Of a DNA stretch of 64,000 nt, positions 6,622-60,247 are shown piece after piece. Below the pieces are notes generated by a model, which saw nothing but the letters and a program-made list of their open reading frames with translations, was not told the origin of the DNA and did no database searches. Position numbers and translations under genes: made by a program. The stretch lies in the NCBI GenBank assembly GCA_023954475.1, contig JAMLHW010000002.1, positions 248,001-312,000 of the forward strand, in the 5' to 3' direction. The stretch is from Anaerolineae bacterium (GTDB lineage Bacteria > Chloroflexota > Anaerolineae > Promineifilales > Promineifilaceae). Every line of letters begins with the position of its first letter. The stretch's first letter is position 1.

Positions 6622-7329
6622 ATGAACAAAATCGGCGCACTCTTATTTCTCGTTGGCTTGACAATCGCTGCTGTGTTGTCCGTCATGATCTTTTGGCCCG
6701 ATCAGGAAGCCCGCCCGTTTGCCATGTCATTGGGCGTCAAAGAACGACTACAAGGGCTGGCATGCCCGCTCATTATCACGCCACGGGATAATGCCGAAGT
6801 TACCGTCAAAGTCCGTAACACGCATGATCGGCCGACCTCACTGCGTTTTTTGAGTAGTATTTCTGAGGGGACTGCTGGATTACTACGCGAAGACACGCAG
6901 CAAATCGATCTCGATCCTGGCGAAACAGACACCTTGGCGTGGCCGATCGCTATCGAAGATGCTGCGTATGACCGCATTGTGATGGCACGCGTGCAACGCT
7001 ACAGCCGCCCACCGTTTGCGGCAGGCGACCAGAGTTGTGGCGTACTGGTGATTAATGCGGCACAGGTGACCGGCAAGCAAATTGTAACGGGCATTGCAGT
7101 TGTGGCGACACTTCTTACAGGTGTTGGCATAGCACTGTGGCTGCGGCATGCGTGGCCGCTTGACAGCCGCGACAGAGGGACAGCCCGTGTCGGAGCAGCC
7201 ATGCTGTTACTTGTGCTGCTAAGCATCTTGCTGGGTGTATTGCAACAACCGTACTTTGCCTTAATTGTTCTGCTAGGTGCAGGTGTGTTTGTTTTTTCAC
7301 TCATTGAAAGAACGTTGATGCGGACCTAA
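6622..7329 (+). CDS. Membrane protein with one extracytoplasmic domain and C-terminal helices
   Basis: A protein of about 235 aa not recognised as a named family. An N-terminal helix (about residues 4-24) is followed by a soluble region of about 120 residues that looks beta-rich (VTVKVRNTHDRPTSLRF, PGETDTLAW), like an immunoglobulin-type domain. Three hydrophobic segments at about 155-175, 188-206 and 207-227 follow. The frame is open back to 6469, but those 51 residues are proline-rich, contain an iterated palindrome copy and have no clear ribosome site; the ATG at 6622 directly precedes the membrane helix and is preferred, with moderate certainty. Confidence 0.7.
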   Translation: MNKIGALLFLVGLTIAAVLSVMIFWPDQEARPFAMSLGVKERLQGLACPLIITPRDNAEVTVKVRNTHDRPTSLRFLSSISEGTAGLLREDTQQIDLDPGETDTLAWPIAIEDAAYDRIVMARVQRYSRPPFAAGDQSCGVLVINAAQVTGKQIVTGIAVVATLLTGVGIALWLRHAWPLDSRDRGTARVGAAMLLLVLLSILLGVLQQPYFALIVLLGAGVFVFSLIERTLMRT

Positions 7330-7517
7330 CCCTTCCCCTATCGCCACAGATTGCTCCAACTCCATTAGATTGTGCCAGACATGACGAAAGTCACCTCTCT
7401 GACATGTATTGTTCAACTAGTCACAGCCCTCACAACACATTACAGTATTAGGTGAGTCATCGGCCGAATTACACGACACAATCCACCCCGCGGCCACCAA
7501 CACATGGGAGGTTAGCC

Positions 7518-53578: not shown

Positions 53579-54493
53579 ATGTCCATAACGCATTTCTGCA
53601 AACAGTGTGCGCAACCAATTTACGGCCGTTACCTCACCGCCATGGGTGCTGACTGGCATCCCGAGCACTTTCGCTGCTCCGTCTGTCAGCAGCCAATCAC
53701 TGACAGCCGTTTCTACGTGCATGATGGACAGCCGTGCCACCCGACCTGTTTCGCTGACAACATCGCACCGCGCTGCGTAATCTGCAACAAACCCCTCACG
53801 AGCCGCTATCACGCCAACTATTGGGGCGACACATTCTGCACCGATCACACGGAGACATTGGCGCCGTGCAACTATTGTGGGCGCCTCGTGCCACACGCCA
53901 CGAAAAAGACGCGCCGTCGCTCGATTGACGACATCCGCTGCAACATTTGTGCCTCAACTGCCATCGAACATGCGCCGCAAGCCCAGCATTTGCTGCCGCC
54001 CTTGATCGCGTGGCTAGAACAGCAGGGCGTCCGTTTTCGCCACAAGAATTTCCGCCTTGAACTGCTCGACCGTACCGACTTTCTGTCGCGCGAAGGTGGT
54101 CGCCGCGATCCGCTTGGCCTCACGACGAGCACCCGCTACATGCGCAACAGACGCGTCGATCACGCCGTCGTTGACAGCATCGCCATTGTAAAAGGCTTGC
54201 CCGCAACATTGTTTGAAGGCGTCTGCGTGCATGAAATCGGCCACGTCTGGCTTGTCCAGCACAATATTGTCAACCTGCCCATCATGGACGAAGAAGGATT
54301 TTGCGAATGGCTAGCACACCGGCACTACCTGGCAGTCGGCAGCAAGGCCGATCGTTTCTATGCGCAGCGCATCGCTCAAAACAGTAGCCCGATCTATGGT
54401 GACGGGTTTCGCAAACTCAAACGACTCGAAGACCGCGTCGGCTTTGACCAGATCATCCAGTCGTTGCTGCGCAAAAAGAAGCTGCCACTGTGA
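53579..54493 (+). CDS. LIM-domain zinc metallopeptidase, DA1-like
   Basis: A 304-aa protein in which the N-terminal 100 residues hold LIM-type zinc-finger Cys/His pairs: CKQC, WHPEHFRCSVC, CHPTCF, CVIC, CNYC and CNIC. The C-terminal half has HEIGHVWL with His 218, the HExxH zinc site, followed about 18 residues on by DEEGFCEWLAH, a second acidic ligand pattern. This order (LIM fingers, HExxH, E-E-G) is that of plant DA1 peptidases, which are ubiquitin-activated; bacterial relatives exist but are poorly studied. No secretion signal, so it should act in the cytoplasm. Confidence 0.85.
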   Translation: MSITHFCKQCAQPIYGRYLTAMGADWHPEHFRCSVCQQPITDSRFYVHDGQPCHPTCFADNIAPRCVICNKPLTSRYHANYWGDTFCTDHTETLAPCNYCGRLVPHATKKTRRRSIDDIRCNICASTAIEHAPQAQHLLPPLIAWLEQQGVRFRHKNFRLELLDRTDFLSREGGRRDPLGLTTSTRYMRNRRVDHAVVDSIAIVKGLPATLFEGVCVHEIGHVWLVQHNIVNLPIMDEEGFCEWLAHRHYLAVGSKADRFYAQRIAQNSSPIYGDGFRKLKRLEDRVGFDQIIQSLLRKKKLPL

Positions 54494-54507
54494 AACAGGT
54501 AAACAGG

Positions 54508-54858
54508 ATGAAAATCACGCGCATTTATACGGACGCAGACGGCGAAACCCACTTTGGCGAACTGAACATACCACTCAAAGATGCCGGCACCATCGGGTTG
54601 CTGTCGCAGTTGCAACCCGCTACCGGGATCATTTTCCGCGAGACACCCGGCACGTACAATTACGACTGGCACAACACGCCGCGTCGGCAATATGTCATCA
54701 TGCTGGAGGGTGGCGTCGATTTCACCGTTTCGGACGGCGAGACACGGCGTTTTGGCAGCGGGGATGTCGTTCTGTTGGAAGATACAGCCGGCAAAGGGCA
54801 CGCCAGCAAGGCAGTGGATGGGCAGCCGCGCAAATCGATTTTTGTCACGCTGGATTGA
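54508..54858 (+). CDS. Cupin-domain protein
   Basis: A 116-aa single-domain cupin: GETHFGELNIPL, a His-containing strand (YDWHNTPRRQYVIMLEGG), FTVSDGETRRFGSGDVVLLED and GHASKAVDG. The two cupin motifs (GxxxxxHxH-like and GDxxxxPxG-like) are recognisable but the first is shortened. Start taken at ATG 54508; GTG 54490 overlaps the DA1 stop by 4 nt and is a real alternative, which would imply coupling. Function unknown. Confidence 0.75.
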   Translation: MKITRIYTDADGETHFGELNIPLKDAGTIGLLSQLQPATGIIFRETPGTYNYDWHNTPRRQYVIMLEGGVDFTVSDGETRRFGSGDVVLLEDTAGKGHASKAVDGQPRKSIFVTLD

Positions 54859-55886: not shown

Positions 55887-58800
55887 GTGACCACAGAACT
55901 GCCCGTATTCCGCATCGTCGTCACTCCTCGCGACGCCACACTCGACCACCATAGCATGACAATCGGCCGACAACTCGGCATCGACACCATCGAGTCGATC
56001 CACGCCAGCCGTCTCTACTACCTGCGCGGCAACATCACCCGCGATCAGGCACAAACCATCGCTAACGACCTGCTCGCCGATCCGGTTACCGAAACGGCGT
56101 TGACGCGCAATGAAAAAGTACGCGTCAAACGCGCGTATCGCGGCCACGAAATCGACGTCATGCTGCTGCCTGGCGTCACCGATCCGGCGGCAGAAAACCT
56201 GGTCAAAGCGGCGCACCTGATCGACATTCCGCTCGATGACGCCGCAACTGGTCAACATTTTCATGTTCTAGGGGTGAACCCAGACGGCAAGCTGGATAAG
56301 GATGCAATCGGCCGAATTGCCAACGAAGTTCTATCCAATCCAGTCGTCCAGCAAACCAGCATCGATCAATGGATCGCCCCACCCTTCTTCGACGAACAAC
56401 GTCCCGACGACACTGTCGAAACGATTCTGCTGACCAGTGCCAGTGACGACGAATTGCTCAAAATCAGCCGGGAACGACGCCTTTCACTCGACCAAAACGA
56501 GATGATCGCCATCCGCGCCTACTACCGGCAAGAAGGCCGCGAACCGACCGATGTCGAATTGGAGATGCTGGCGCAGACGTGGAGCGAGCATTGCGTCCAC
56601 AAGACGTTCAAAGCCGACATCACCTACACCGGCCCCGATGGCACGACCGAGACGATCAACGGTCTGCTCAACACCTACATCCGCGCCGCAACCGACAAGA
56701 TCAACCGTCCGTGGGTGCGCTCCGCTTTTGTCGATGACGCCGGCATCGTGCGCTTCAACGACGCATACGACCTCGCGTTCAAGGTCGAAACGCACAATCA
56801 CCCGTCGGCTTTGGAACCATTTGGCGGTGCCAATACCGGCATCGGCGGCGTCATCCGCGACGTGCTCGGCGTCAGCGCCCGCCCGATTGCCAACACCGAC
56901 ATTCTCTGTTTCGGCCGACCCGATTTACCACTCGACCAATTGCCCCACGGCGTCCTGCACCCGACGCGCATTGCCGACGGCGTCGTCCACGGTATCGAGG
57001 ATTACGGCAACAAAATGGGCATCCCGACCGTCAACGGCGCCATCGTCTACCACGACGGCTACACATCCAACCCGCTCGTCTATTGCGGCTGTCTCGGCGT
57101 TTTGCCGCATGGCGCACATCCCAGCAAAGTGCAGCCAGGCGATCTGATCGTCGCCATCGGCGGTCGTGTGGGGCGCGACGGTTTGCGCGGCGCGACGTTT
57201 TCCAGCATGGAAATGGACCAGACGACGAGCGACATCGCCGGCACCGCCGTGCAAATCGGCCATCCGATTATGGAAAAACAGGTGCTCGAAGTGGTCATGC
57301 GCTGTCGCGATGAGCAGTTGTACAATGCCCTGACCGACTGTGGTGCTGGCGGCTTCTCCTCATCGGTGGGCGAATTGGGCGAAGACGTCGGCGCAACGGT
57401 CGAATTGAGCCAGGTATCGCTCAAATATCCAGGCCTGCGCCCGTGGGAAATCTGGCTCAGCGAAGCGCAGGAACGCATGGTATTGTCCGTACCGCCAGAG
57501 AAATTGGCGCGCGTGCAGGAAATTGCGGCGTCGCAGGACGTGGAAGCGACGGTGCTGGGCACGTTTGATCCGACGGGCCACATGACGATCACCTACAAGG
57601 GCGAGACTGTCGGCGATTTGAGCATGGCGTTTCTGCACGATGGCATCCCCACACGGCAGATGACGGCAAAATGGGAACCGCCGACCATTTCGGCCGAACC
57701 CGCCCGCCAACTCCTCCCCACGCAAGACGCCTTGCTGCAACTCCTTGCCCTGCCCACCATCCGCAGCAAAGAAGACGTCGTCCGCCGCTACGACCACGAA
57801 GTTCAGGGCGGCACAGCGGTTAAACCATTCGTCGGCGTCGCTGACAATGGACCGAGCGATGCGGCGGTCATCGTCCCGCAGGAAACGATTGCGGATGTCG
57901 GATATGGGATTTCGGAAAACGACAACTCCGAAATCCGAAATCCAAAATCCGAAATCAAAGGCGTAGCCATCTCGAACGGCATCTGCCCGACCTACGGCGC
58001 AATCGACCCATACGCGATGGCGTGGGCGGCAGTCGACGAAGCGCTGCGCAATCTCGTCGCCGTCGGCGCCAATCCGGATGAAGTCTCGATCCTCGACAAC
58101 TTCTGCTGGGGCAATCCGCAGTTGCCCGACCGGCTGGGGGCGCTCGTGCGCTGTGCGCAGGGCTGCCATGATGCCGCCGTTGCCTACCGCACGCCATTCA
58201 TTTCCGGCAAAGACAGCCTCAACAACGAATACGTCGGCGCAGATGGCGAAAAACACGCCATTCCCGGCACGATTTTGATCTCGGCTATCGGTCTCGTACC
58301 CGACGTTGCCAAGACCGTTACGATGGATTTGAAGCAACCGGGCAACCTGCTCTACATCGTCGGCGAGACACGCGCCGAGCTTGGTGGTAGCCAATACGCC
58401 GTGCTACACGAAGAACAAGGCGGCAAACCACCGCAGCCGTTGACTGCGGGGCTGGCACGCTACCGCGCTGTCCACCGCGCGATCAAGGAAGGGCTGGTCA
58501 CCGCATGCCACGATTTGTCAGAAGGTGGCCTCGGCGTGGCGCTGGCGGAAATGGCATTGGCTGGACGACTTGGTGCGTCGATCGAGTTGGACAAAGTGCC
58601 GGCGAATGTGGCGCACGACGACCTGATTTTGTTCAGTGAGAGCATCGGCCGATTCCTTGTCGAAGTCGCGCCCGAAAACCAGCAACAATTCGAATACAAC
58701 CTCGCTGCCGACAACACAGTGCAAATCGGCACCGTCAACAGTTCCGGTCGCGTCACCGTCACTGGCGTGGACGGCGAGGCGGTGGTCGATGTAGCTGTCG

Positions 58801-59690
58801 CAGAGCTTGAGCAAGCGTGGCGTGGGCACGTGACTGCGGATTTCGGATATGGGATTTCGGAAACAATTGCTCCGCAATCCGAAATCGAACATCCGAAATC
58901 GAACGTCGCTAGGCGGCCAAAGGTCGCCATTCTCCACGCCAACGGCACAAATCGCGACCGGGATGCAGCGCTGGCTTGTGAATTGGCTGGTGGTGCGCCT
59001 GAGATCGTGCACATCAATCAGTTGATCGCCGGTGAGCGCAATTTGCTCGATTATCACATGCTGGTCGTGCCGGGCGGCTTTTCATATGGGGATGACCTGG
59101 GTGCTGGCGTGCTGTTTTCGGCCGAATTGAAGCATCGTTTTGGCGACATGGTACGCACATTTGTAGCTGACGGTCGGCCGACACTGGGCATCTGCAACGG
59201 CTTCCAAACCCTGGTCAAAGCGGGCCTGTTCGAGTTGCCAACGGTGGCAGGACATCGGCCGATTACGCTGACGTACAACGAACGTGGTCAGTTTGAATGC
59301 CGTTGGGTATTGCTCGAGCCAAATCTAGACTCGCCGAGTATCTTCACCAAAGGGCTAACAGAGCCGATCTATTGTCCGGTGGCGCACGGTGAAGGCCGGT
59401 TTATGGTGCAAGATGACGCAACAGCGAGCATGTTACAGCAGCACAATTTGATCGCGTTGACGTATCGGGATGCAAGGGGCAAGGGGCAAGGAGAAAGGGC
59501 TGAGTATCCGGCGAACCCAAATGGGTCCATGCTCGATATTGCAGGGATAACGAACCCGGCAGGCAATGTTTTGGGCTTGATGCCGCATCCGGAAAATCAC
59601 ATTTTTCCGTGGCAGAATCCACAGCGCCATCGTGGCGCAGCTGGCCTGGACGGATTACGGATCTTCACCAACGCTATCAGAAACACGTAG
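55887..59690 (+). CDS. purL: Phosphoribosylformylglycinamidine synthase, PurS-PurL-PurQ-like fusion
   Basis: A 1267-aa enzyme of step 4 in purine synthesis (FGAR to FGAM, ATP and Gln dependent). Residues 1-165 contain two PurS-like repeats (FRIVVTPRDATLDHHS and the AHLIDIP-ending half). The AIRS/PurL part follows: SEHCVHKTF, THNHPSALEPFGGANTGIGGVIRD, GSDTGTSG-like and ISNGICPTYG. A C-terminal class I glutaminase has PGGFSYGDDLGAGVLF, nucleophile Cys about 1103 in LGICNGFQ and the His in AHGEGRF. GTG 55887 has GGAG 8 nt upstream. Two heptamer-repeat insertions lie at about residues 670-690 and 985-1005; the second falls in the linker before the glutaminase. Confidence 0.94.
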   Translation: MTTELPVFRIVVTPRDATLDHHSMTIGRQLGIDTIESIHASRLYYLRGNITRDQAQTIANDLLADPVTETALTRNEKVRVKRAYRGHEIDVMLLPGVTDPAAENLVKAAHLIDIPLDDAATGQHFHVLGVNPDGKLDKDAIGRIANEVLSNPVVQQTSIDQWIAPPFFDEQRPDDTVETILLTSASDDELLKISRERRLSLDQNEMIAIRAYYRQEGREPTDVELEMLAQTWSEHCVHKTFKADITYTGPDGTTETINGLLNTYIRAATDKINRPWVRSAFVDDAGIVRFNDAYDLAFKVETHNHPSALEPFGGANTGIGGVIRDVLGVSARPIANTDILCFGRPDLPLDQLPHGVLHPTRIADGVVHGIEDYGNKMGIPTVNGAIVYHDGYTSNPLVYCGCLGVLPHGAHPSKVQPGDLIVAIGGRVGRDGLRGATFSSMEMDQTTSDIAGTAVQIGHPIMEKQVLEVVMRCRDEQLYNALTDCGAGGFSSSVGELGEDVGATVELSQVSLKYPGLRPWEIWLSEAQERMVLSVPPEKLARVQEIAASQDVEATVLGTFDPTGHMTITYKGETVGDLSMAFLHDGIPTRQMTAKWEPPTISAEPARQLLPTQDALLQLLALPTIRSKEDVVRRYDHEVQGGTAVKPFVGVADNGPSDAAVIVPQETIADVGYGISENDNSEIRNPKSEIKGVAISNGICPTYGAIDPYAMAWAAVDEALRNLVAVGANPDEVSILDNFCWGNPQLPDRLGALVRCAQGCHDAAVAYRTPFISGKDSLNNEYVGADGEKHAIPGTILISAIGLVPDVAKTVTMDLKQPGNLLYIVGETRAELGGSQYAVLHEEQGGKPPQPLTAGLARYRAVHRAIKEGLVTACHDLSEGGLGVALAEMALAGRLGASIELDKVPANVAHDDLILFSESIGRFLVEVAPENQQQFEYNLAADNTVQIGTVNSSGRVTVTGVDGEAVVDVAVAELEQAWRGHVTADFGYGISETIAPQSEIEHPKSNVARRPKVAILHANGTNRDRDAALACELAGGAPEIVHINQLIAGERNLLDYHMLVVPGGFSYGDDLGAGVLFSAELKHRFGDMVRTFVADGRPTLGICNGFQTLVKAGLFELPTVAGHRPITLTYNERGQFECRWVLLEPNLDSPSIFTKGLTEPIYCPVAHGEGRFMVQDDATASMLQQHNLIALTYRDARGKGQGERAEYPANPNGSMLDIAGITNPAGNVLGLMPHPENHIFPWQNPQRHRGAAGLDGLRIFTNAIRNT
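57908..57956. repeat. CGAAATC heptamer array and inverted copy in purL, site 1
   Basis: An inverted GATTTCG at 57908-57914 faces four CGAAATC-type units at 57929-57956 (third unit CAAAATC). It encodes a peptide of EIRNPKSEI type within the second AIRS half. A related stretch recurs at 58.84 kb with a shared 17-nt flank. Confidence 0.75.
58839..58900. repeat. CGAAATC heptamer array and inverted copy in purL, site 2
   Basis: GATTTCG at 58839-58845 and 58853-58859 face CGAAATC at 58880-58886 and 58894-58900. The translated peptide lies in the linker between the PurL body and the glutaminase domain. It shares about 45 bp with site 1 in the order and spacing of motifs. Confidence 0.75.
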
Positions 59691-59736: not shown

Positions 59737-59769
59737 GTCGTGACGCTATGATGTTATGAGGTGTACAAG

Positions 59770-60003
59770 ATGACAACTTTGACCAAAAGAACAACAATCT
59801 ACCTTGATCCTGAATTGCACCGCGCATTACGACTGAAATCGGCCGAAACGAACCGCTCCATTTCCGAATTGATCAACGAACTAGTCAAGATGGAAGTATC
59901 GGCCGATGAAGCCGATCTACGTGCCTTCCGCGAGCGAGTAGACGAGCCAACGATCAGCTATGAAGCGCTGCTGCAGGATTTGAAGGCGCATGGCAAAATA
60001 TGA
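59770..60003 (+). CDS. Ribbon-helix-helix antitoxin of a RelE-type pair
   Basis: A 77-aa protein. The N-terminal RHH region (TTIYLDPELHRALRLKSAETNRSISELINELV, read in parts) is a typical DNA-binding CopG/ParD-like fold; the acidic C-terminal tail (DEADLRAFRERVDEPTISYEALLQDL) is the expected toxin-neutralising part. GAGGTG precedes ATG 59770. It overlaps the toxin start by 14 nt and probably represses its own promoter. Confidence 0.9.
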   Translation: MTTLTKRTTIYLDPELHRALRLKSAETNRSISELINELVKMEVSADEADLRAFRERVDEPTISYEALLQDLKAHGKI

Positions 60004-60247
60004 GATCGTCTTTAAGGCGTCTGTTGCCAAGGATTTGCATTCCATTCCAAACCGCGATGTAGAACGCATTTTATCCCGGATAAGCCAGTTGGCGATTGAT
60101 CCGCGTCCACCGCAATCTATCAAACTGTCCGGCGAAGAAAAGTACCGTCTGCGACAAGGCAGTTACCGCATCCTCTATCAGATTGATGACCTGGTCATCA
60201 CTGTAACCGTTGTCAAAATCGGACATCGCCGCGACGTTTACCGTTGA
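59990..60247 (+). CDS. RelE/ParE-superfamily toxin
   Basis: An 85-aa basic protein of the RelE/ParE fold: KASVAKDLHSIPNRDVERIL, IKLSGEEKYRLRQGSYRILYQID and VVKIGHRRDVYR at the end, with conserved Arg and Lys and the usual final HRRDVY motif. Most members are ribosome-dependent mRNA endonucleases; a minority poison gyrase. It overlaps and follows the antitoxin gene. Confidence 0.92.
   Translation: MAKYEIVFKASVAKDLHSIPNRDVERILSRISQLAIDPRPPQSIKLSGEEKYRLRQGSYRILYQIDDLVITVTVVKIGHRRDVYR

Follow-up and report, generated by a model that had tools for sequence, protein, structure and literature searches.

A LIM-DA1-type metallopeptidase in an Anaerolineae genome and the modification enzymes encoded beside its bacterial relatives

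One gene of the 64,000-nucleotide stretch of Anaerolineae genome analyzed here (the window, meaning that whole stretch) probably encodes a bacterial DA1-family zinc endopeptidase whose array of LIM and LIM-like units gates the active site through partner binding or modification, a reading to which we give a probability of about 0.6. The window protein is a further member of the known bacterial DA1 relatives, which the Pfam DA1 model covers. In some of these relatives the peptidase gene lies beside genes for a kinase, a phosphatase and a VWA protein, or beside a GNAT acetyltransferase gene, and this context points to modifications other than ubiquitin as what gates DA1 peptidases in bacteria.

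Domain architecture and active site

The features of the gene are collected in Table 1. Profile comparison with Pfam gave 59 bits for PF00412 against a cut-off of 22.9 and 51.2 bits for PF12315 (DA1-like; E 1.4e-13) against a cut-off of 25, which upholds the LIM-DA1-type call of the first-pass annotation. The PF12315 match comes in two stretches, the best being residues 189-248, and covers the profile in part only, at positions 70-129 and 170-210, the second of these from the genome search. Both families were matched in 19/19 alignment members. The order of parts is that of plant DA1, as had been proposed from the sequence, with a LIM domain, a LIM-like unit and a peptidase following one another, and the HExxH-x15-EE spacing is the same as in the plant motif, printed as HEMMH-x15-EE in Dong et al. 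2017 (PMC5322733). The agreement of domains, motif and conserved residues is far beyond chance.

Table 1. Coordinates in the window of the LIM-DA1-type gene, its parts and the adjoining cupin gene
Feature	Position	Strand	Evidence or description
LIM-DA1-type metallopeptidase gene	53579..54493	+	304 codons/304 aa, ATG start, TGA stop, intact
Canonical LIM domain, residues 7-60	53597..53758	+	PF00412 E 5.7e-16; structural matches to PINCH, TES, LMO LIM domains
LIM-like double zinc-binding unit, residues 66-124	53774..53950	+	Four CxxC/H pairs
Predicted gluzincin (M1-like) peptidase domain, residues 130-304	53966..54490	+	PF12315; M1 aminopeptidase 1z1w Z 12.2
HEIGH zinc-binding/catalytic motif, residues 218-222	54230..54244	+	H218, E219, H222 invariant in both alignments
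EEGFCE motif, residues 238-243	54290..54307	+	E239, G240, E243 invariant in both alignments
Small cupin gene	54490..54858	+	Earliest start overlaps DA1 stop; Cupin_3 E 1.1e-6

The N-terminal part had been described as LIM-like zinc fingers. One true LIM domain, recognized by PF00412, and one LIM-like unit are present, and the two are not both canonical. By our own reading of the sequence the zinc sites of the canonical LIM would be C7, C10, H27, H30 and C33, C36, H54, C57, and those of the LIM-like unit C66, C69, C87, H90 and C97, C100, C121, C124. Conservation was read from two alignments, one of 19 rows and one of 15 rows that includes short forms of the protein; C66, C69, C87, C97, C100, C121 and C124 are invariant in both, and H90 is nearly invariant in the 19-row alignment. 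The chain starts just six residues ahead of the first LIM cysteine, which leaves no space for the N-terminal ubiquitin-interacting motifs (UIMs) of plant DA1.

In the active site of the window protein HEIGH-x15-EE is followed by G-F-C-E243. A survey of 52 related loci, one of them unreadable in frame, found HExxH-x15-EE-G in 43 of the 51 readable loci, x16-EG in six and x14-EEG in two. The first glutamate is replaced and the second kept in the six x16-EG loci, so E239 is a better candidate than E238 for the third zinc ligand, and it is the likely one.

The LIM-DA1 gene is present as a single copy in the 5.12 Mb genome and is under purifying selection. In comparisons with the two full-length relatives nearest to the window protein (68-69% identity in the 19-row alignment), pN/pS was 0.184/0.702 and 0.180/0.623; pN is thus far below pS, and the gene has therefore been maintained.

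Predicted fold

The AlphaFold2 model built from the 19-row alignment has a mean pLDDT of 91.5 and a pTM of 0.82. The structure prediction that had been proposed as a check joins LIM zinc fingers to an M1-aminopeptidase-like gluzincin domain, in keeping with the original assignment. The top Foldseek matches of the model are LIM proteins such as PINCH1. VIA-align superposed residues 130-304 on the M1 aminopeptidase 1z1w with an rmsd of 2.6 over 148 residues, and gave Z 11.0 for the model with LTA4H (5ni4) and Z 8.7, over a wider range, with MATCAP (7z6s). The enzyme part is a gluzincin by predicted fold. It shares with M1 aminopeptidases, LTA4H and MATCAP the fold predicted for residues 130-304 and an HExxH with a downstream glutamate, but differs from them in sequence, with 15-20% identity in the aligned parts, and in its flanking domains. 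Sequence searches of the PDB returned LIM proteins and one TRIM37 row (E 0.12), with no peptidase among the best 60 of 67 rows.

Distribution and forms among relatives

Matches to PF12315 at E <= 0.001 were found in 3/59 relatives, 13/396 genomes of the class and 53/400 genomes of the phylum, 40 of the last 53 passing the family cut-off. A single-protein scan of genome contigs with narrow peptide patterns gave no relatives, and an alignment-based scan of named genomes, used instead, gave 52 loci. These come from Chloroflexota (mostly Ktedonobacterales), Actinomycetota, Gemmatimonadota, Planctomycetota, Melainabacteria, Acidobacteriota (Bryobacteraceae) and proteobacterial records. A phage origin of the gene is not supported, the scan of viral contigs having given no relative.

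The closest named records are the Anaerolineae/Anaerolineales bins L036 and L037, and in the tree the window copy groups with these and with L038 at 100/100 support, a placement that makes an anaerolinean of the Chloroflexota the most likely host. The L038 protein is 59% identical to the window protein and starts at the LIM-like unit, without the canonical LIM. Such short forms, consisting of LIM-like unit and peptidase only, are also present in other Chloroflexota and in Actinomycetota, and these two parts are what the short forms retain. Extra zinc-finger repeats are seen ahead of the LIM-like unit in four other Chloroflexota loci (L017, L022, L024 and L025).

Gene neighborhoods

Mapping of the neighbors in related genomes, as the first-pass annotation had advised, placed VWA/kinase-type genes or a GNAT gene beside the DA1 gene in some relatives. 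Among 53 loci (the window and the 52 relatives, six of the loci having supplied the queries), 15 have VWA and kinase-type genes next to DA1, usually together with a PP2C gene in a TerY-P-like triad, and a strong VWA and kinase pair is absent in 38. Pfam supports PP2C in L046, L073 and L078, VWA in L046 and L078, and the kinase in L060 and L073, the kinase match in L046 being below the Pfam cut-off. In Candidatus Chloroploca mongolica (L046, 1062-5674) genes for VWA, PP2C, kinase, LIM-DA1 and WXG100 form one run in which the kinase and DA1 frames overlap. The Lentzea locus (L078, 1814-9646) has DUF4407, VWA, PP2C, kinase-like and DA1 genes and, further downstream, a gene that is nSTAND3/AAA-like by weak Pfam matches, and in Actinokineospora (L085) a TIR gene lies at 6778-7392, downstream of DA1. 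The arrangement in these two actinobacterial loci looks like a conflict-system layout. We do not claim a defense role: PADLOC did not match the peptidase, and what it returned for the kinases of relatives was of kinase type only. Of the 15 triad cases, 11 fall in a single actinobacterial clade of the tree, and six loci supplied queries, so the 15 are not 15 independent events; the tree leaves 16 inner branches open and so gives no count of independent origins of the linkage. Eight short-form loci (L028-L035) have no VWA or kinase gene within about 1.5 kb.

The second context belongs to the Ktedonobacterales, where a GNAT acetyltransferase gene stands directly upstream of LIM-DA1, at a gap of 7-88 bp, in 13/18 loci, and in one further locus the distance is 906 bp; by tblastn, GNAT was found in 16/18. 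An example among loci L039-L057 is L045 (4953-5900), in which GNAT is supported by Pfam. Our literature search recognized nothing linking DA1 to TerY-P or GNAT; subscription papers mostly fall outside that search, and such contexts may have been mentioned by Burroughs 2011 and Anantharaman 2012.

Beside the window copy there is neither a GNAT nor a TerY-P-like partner. The gene is flanked by an alpha/beta hydrolase gene and the small cupin gene, which is possibly co-transcribed with it and is a candidate member of the same unit, and which tblastn matched in none of the 52 related loci. When nine window neighbors were compared with these loci by tblastn, the single match was that of a common SnoaL-like gene, which in L038 lies ~4 kb from DA1. 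No TerY-P-like genes were found in the window, the kinase and VWA of L046 as queries gave no match in the window's own genome (a search that had no positive control), and the only PP2C match in that genome stands apart from kinase/VWA partners. Elsewhere in the window, going by sequence, a 1267-aa frame at 55887-59690 reads as a putative phosphoribosylformylglycinamidine synthase (PurL) with a glutaminase part, and two small overlapping genes at 59761-60247 resemble a ribbon-helix-helix antitoxin and a RelE-type toxin.

Discussion

The enzyme would be a cytosolic zinc endopeptidase of a bacterial branch of the DA1 family. In the mechanism that we propose, H218, H222 and E239 would hold the catalytic zinc and E219 would activate water. 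Ahead of the enzyme, the two units, LIM and LIM-like, would carry four structural zincs and form an array to which a partner or substrate binds and through which entry to the active site is controlled. Of this gate the LIM-like unit would be the constant part, with the canonical LIM as an add-on. The targets may be one or a few specific proteins, as opposed to bulk proteolysis. Since the neighbors in relatives are a kinase/phosphatase/VWA triad or GNAT, gating of the bacterial enzymes would be by phosphorylation- or acetylation-type modifications or by partner binding. Because the window copy has neither partner, the gating idea draws on relatives whose identity is about 46% at most, and it is from those relatives that we infer, for that copy, a switch by phosphorylation or acetylation in place of the plant one.

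The strongest alternative, which we consider possible at rather long odds, is a constitutive peptidase without a switch, in which the LIM units only stabilize the fold or bind substrates. It would agree with the lack of a conserved partner gene beside the window copy, the SnoaL-like match being the one exception, and with the 38 loci that have no strong VWA and kinase pair. However, the gene is patchy (the 13 of 396 class genomes), unlike that of a housekeeping enzyme, and the linkage to modification enzymes is repeated in relatives. That the peptidase fold serves binding only, as an inactive scaffold, we hold to be improbable: many LIM proteins are scaffolds, but neither alignment shows any change at H218, E219, H222 or E239, even in short forms that are 21-23% identical.

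The relation to plant DA1 is one of family. The window protein resembles plant DA1/DAR proteins in the order of its parts, in the HExxH-x15-EE arrangement, compared here with the printed motif, and in a PF12315 score above the cut-off. Arabidopsis DA1, in contrast, has UIMs and an N-terminal extension that the window protein lacks; UIMs are not common to all plant DA1/DAR members either. Because the UIMs are absent, we class the window protein as a DA1-family relative without the ubiquitin switch, as judged from its sequence, and not as a DA1 orthologue. According to Dong et al. (PMC5322733), plant DA1 is ubiquitin-activated, and the C274Y change in its LIM-like unit abolishes both ubiquitylation and peptidase activity. 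The plant switch is ubiquitylation guided by the UIMs, the very part missing in the window protein. The first-pass annotation had noted no evident ubiquitin in this bacterium, and ubiquitin is indeed an unlikely activator: the UIM region is absent, and searches of the genome detected no ubiquitin pathway, giving no match for ubiquitin or Prok-E2_B, a result to be read with the control genomes, which likewise gave none. A peptidase working with a bacterial ubiquitin-like pathway, as the ubiquitin activation of plant DA1 could lead one to expect, is therefore the least credible alternative, being opposed by the absent UIM region and those searches and also by the neighbor proteins that were run against Pfam, none of which hit a ubiquitin-like, E1, E2 or JAB family.

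Bacterial DA1 relatives are already known as a category, because Dong et al. 2017 (PMC5322733) cites Burroughs et al. 2011 for Roseiflexus proteins that resemble DA1. The window protein is like these in having a peptidase and a LIM-like unit with four CxxC/H pairs; unlike the Roseiflexus-type short forms it adds a canonical LIM in front, and it is 21-23% identical to short Chloroflexota forms. The triad in relatives has the make-up given for TerY-P in PMC11090510, namely VWA, PP2C and a kinase (of Ser/Thr type), and such genes adjoin the DA1 gene there; the window copy differs in that the triad was found neither beside it nor in its own genome with the queries used.

Kinase, phosphatase or acetyltransferase neighbors may switch on some bacterial DA1 relatives in place of ubiquitin. 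A more speculative extension, which we offer as doubtful, is that DA1 peptidases in bacteria serve modification switches as their output proteases, acting after TerY-P-like phosphorylation or, in Ktedonobacterales, GNAT acetylation; the Actinomycetota triads come with DUF4407, to which TIR or NTPase genes are sometimes added, much as in conflict systems.

Plant DA1 controls organ size by means of a latent peptidase. If gating by such modifications is true of the bacterial enzymes, the LIM-like gate would have been retained in plants, and ubiquitin would have taken the place of the switch. The small bacterial forms without UIMs would suit work on structure and activity, and the gene neighbors of the bacterial forms would be candidate activators that are directly testable.
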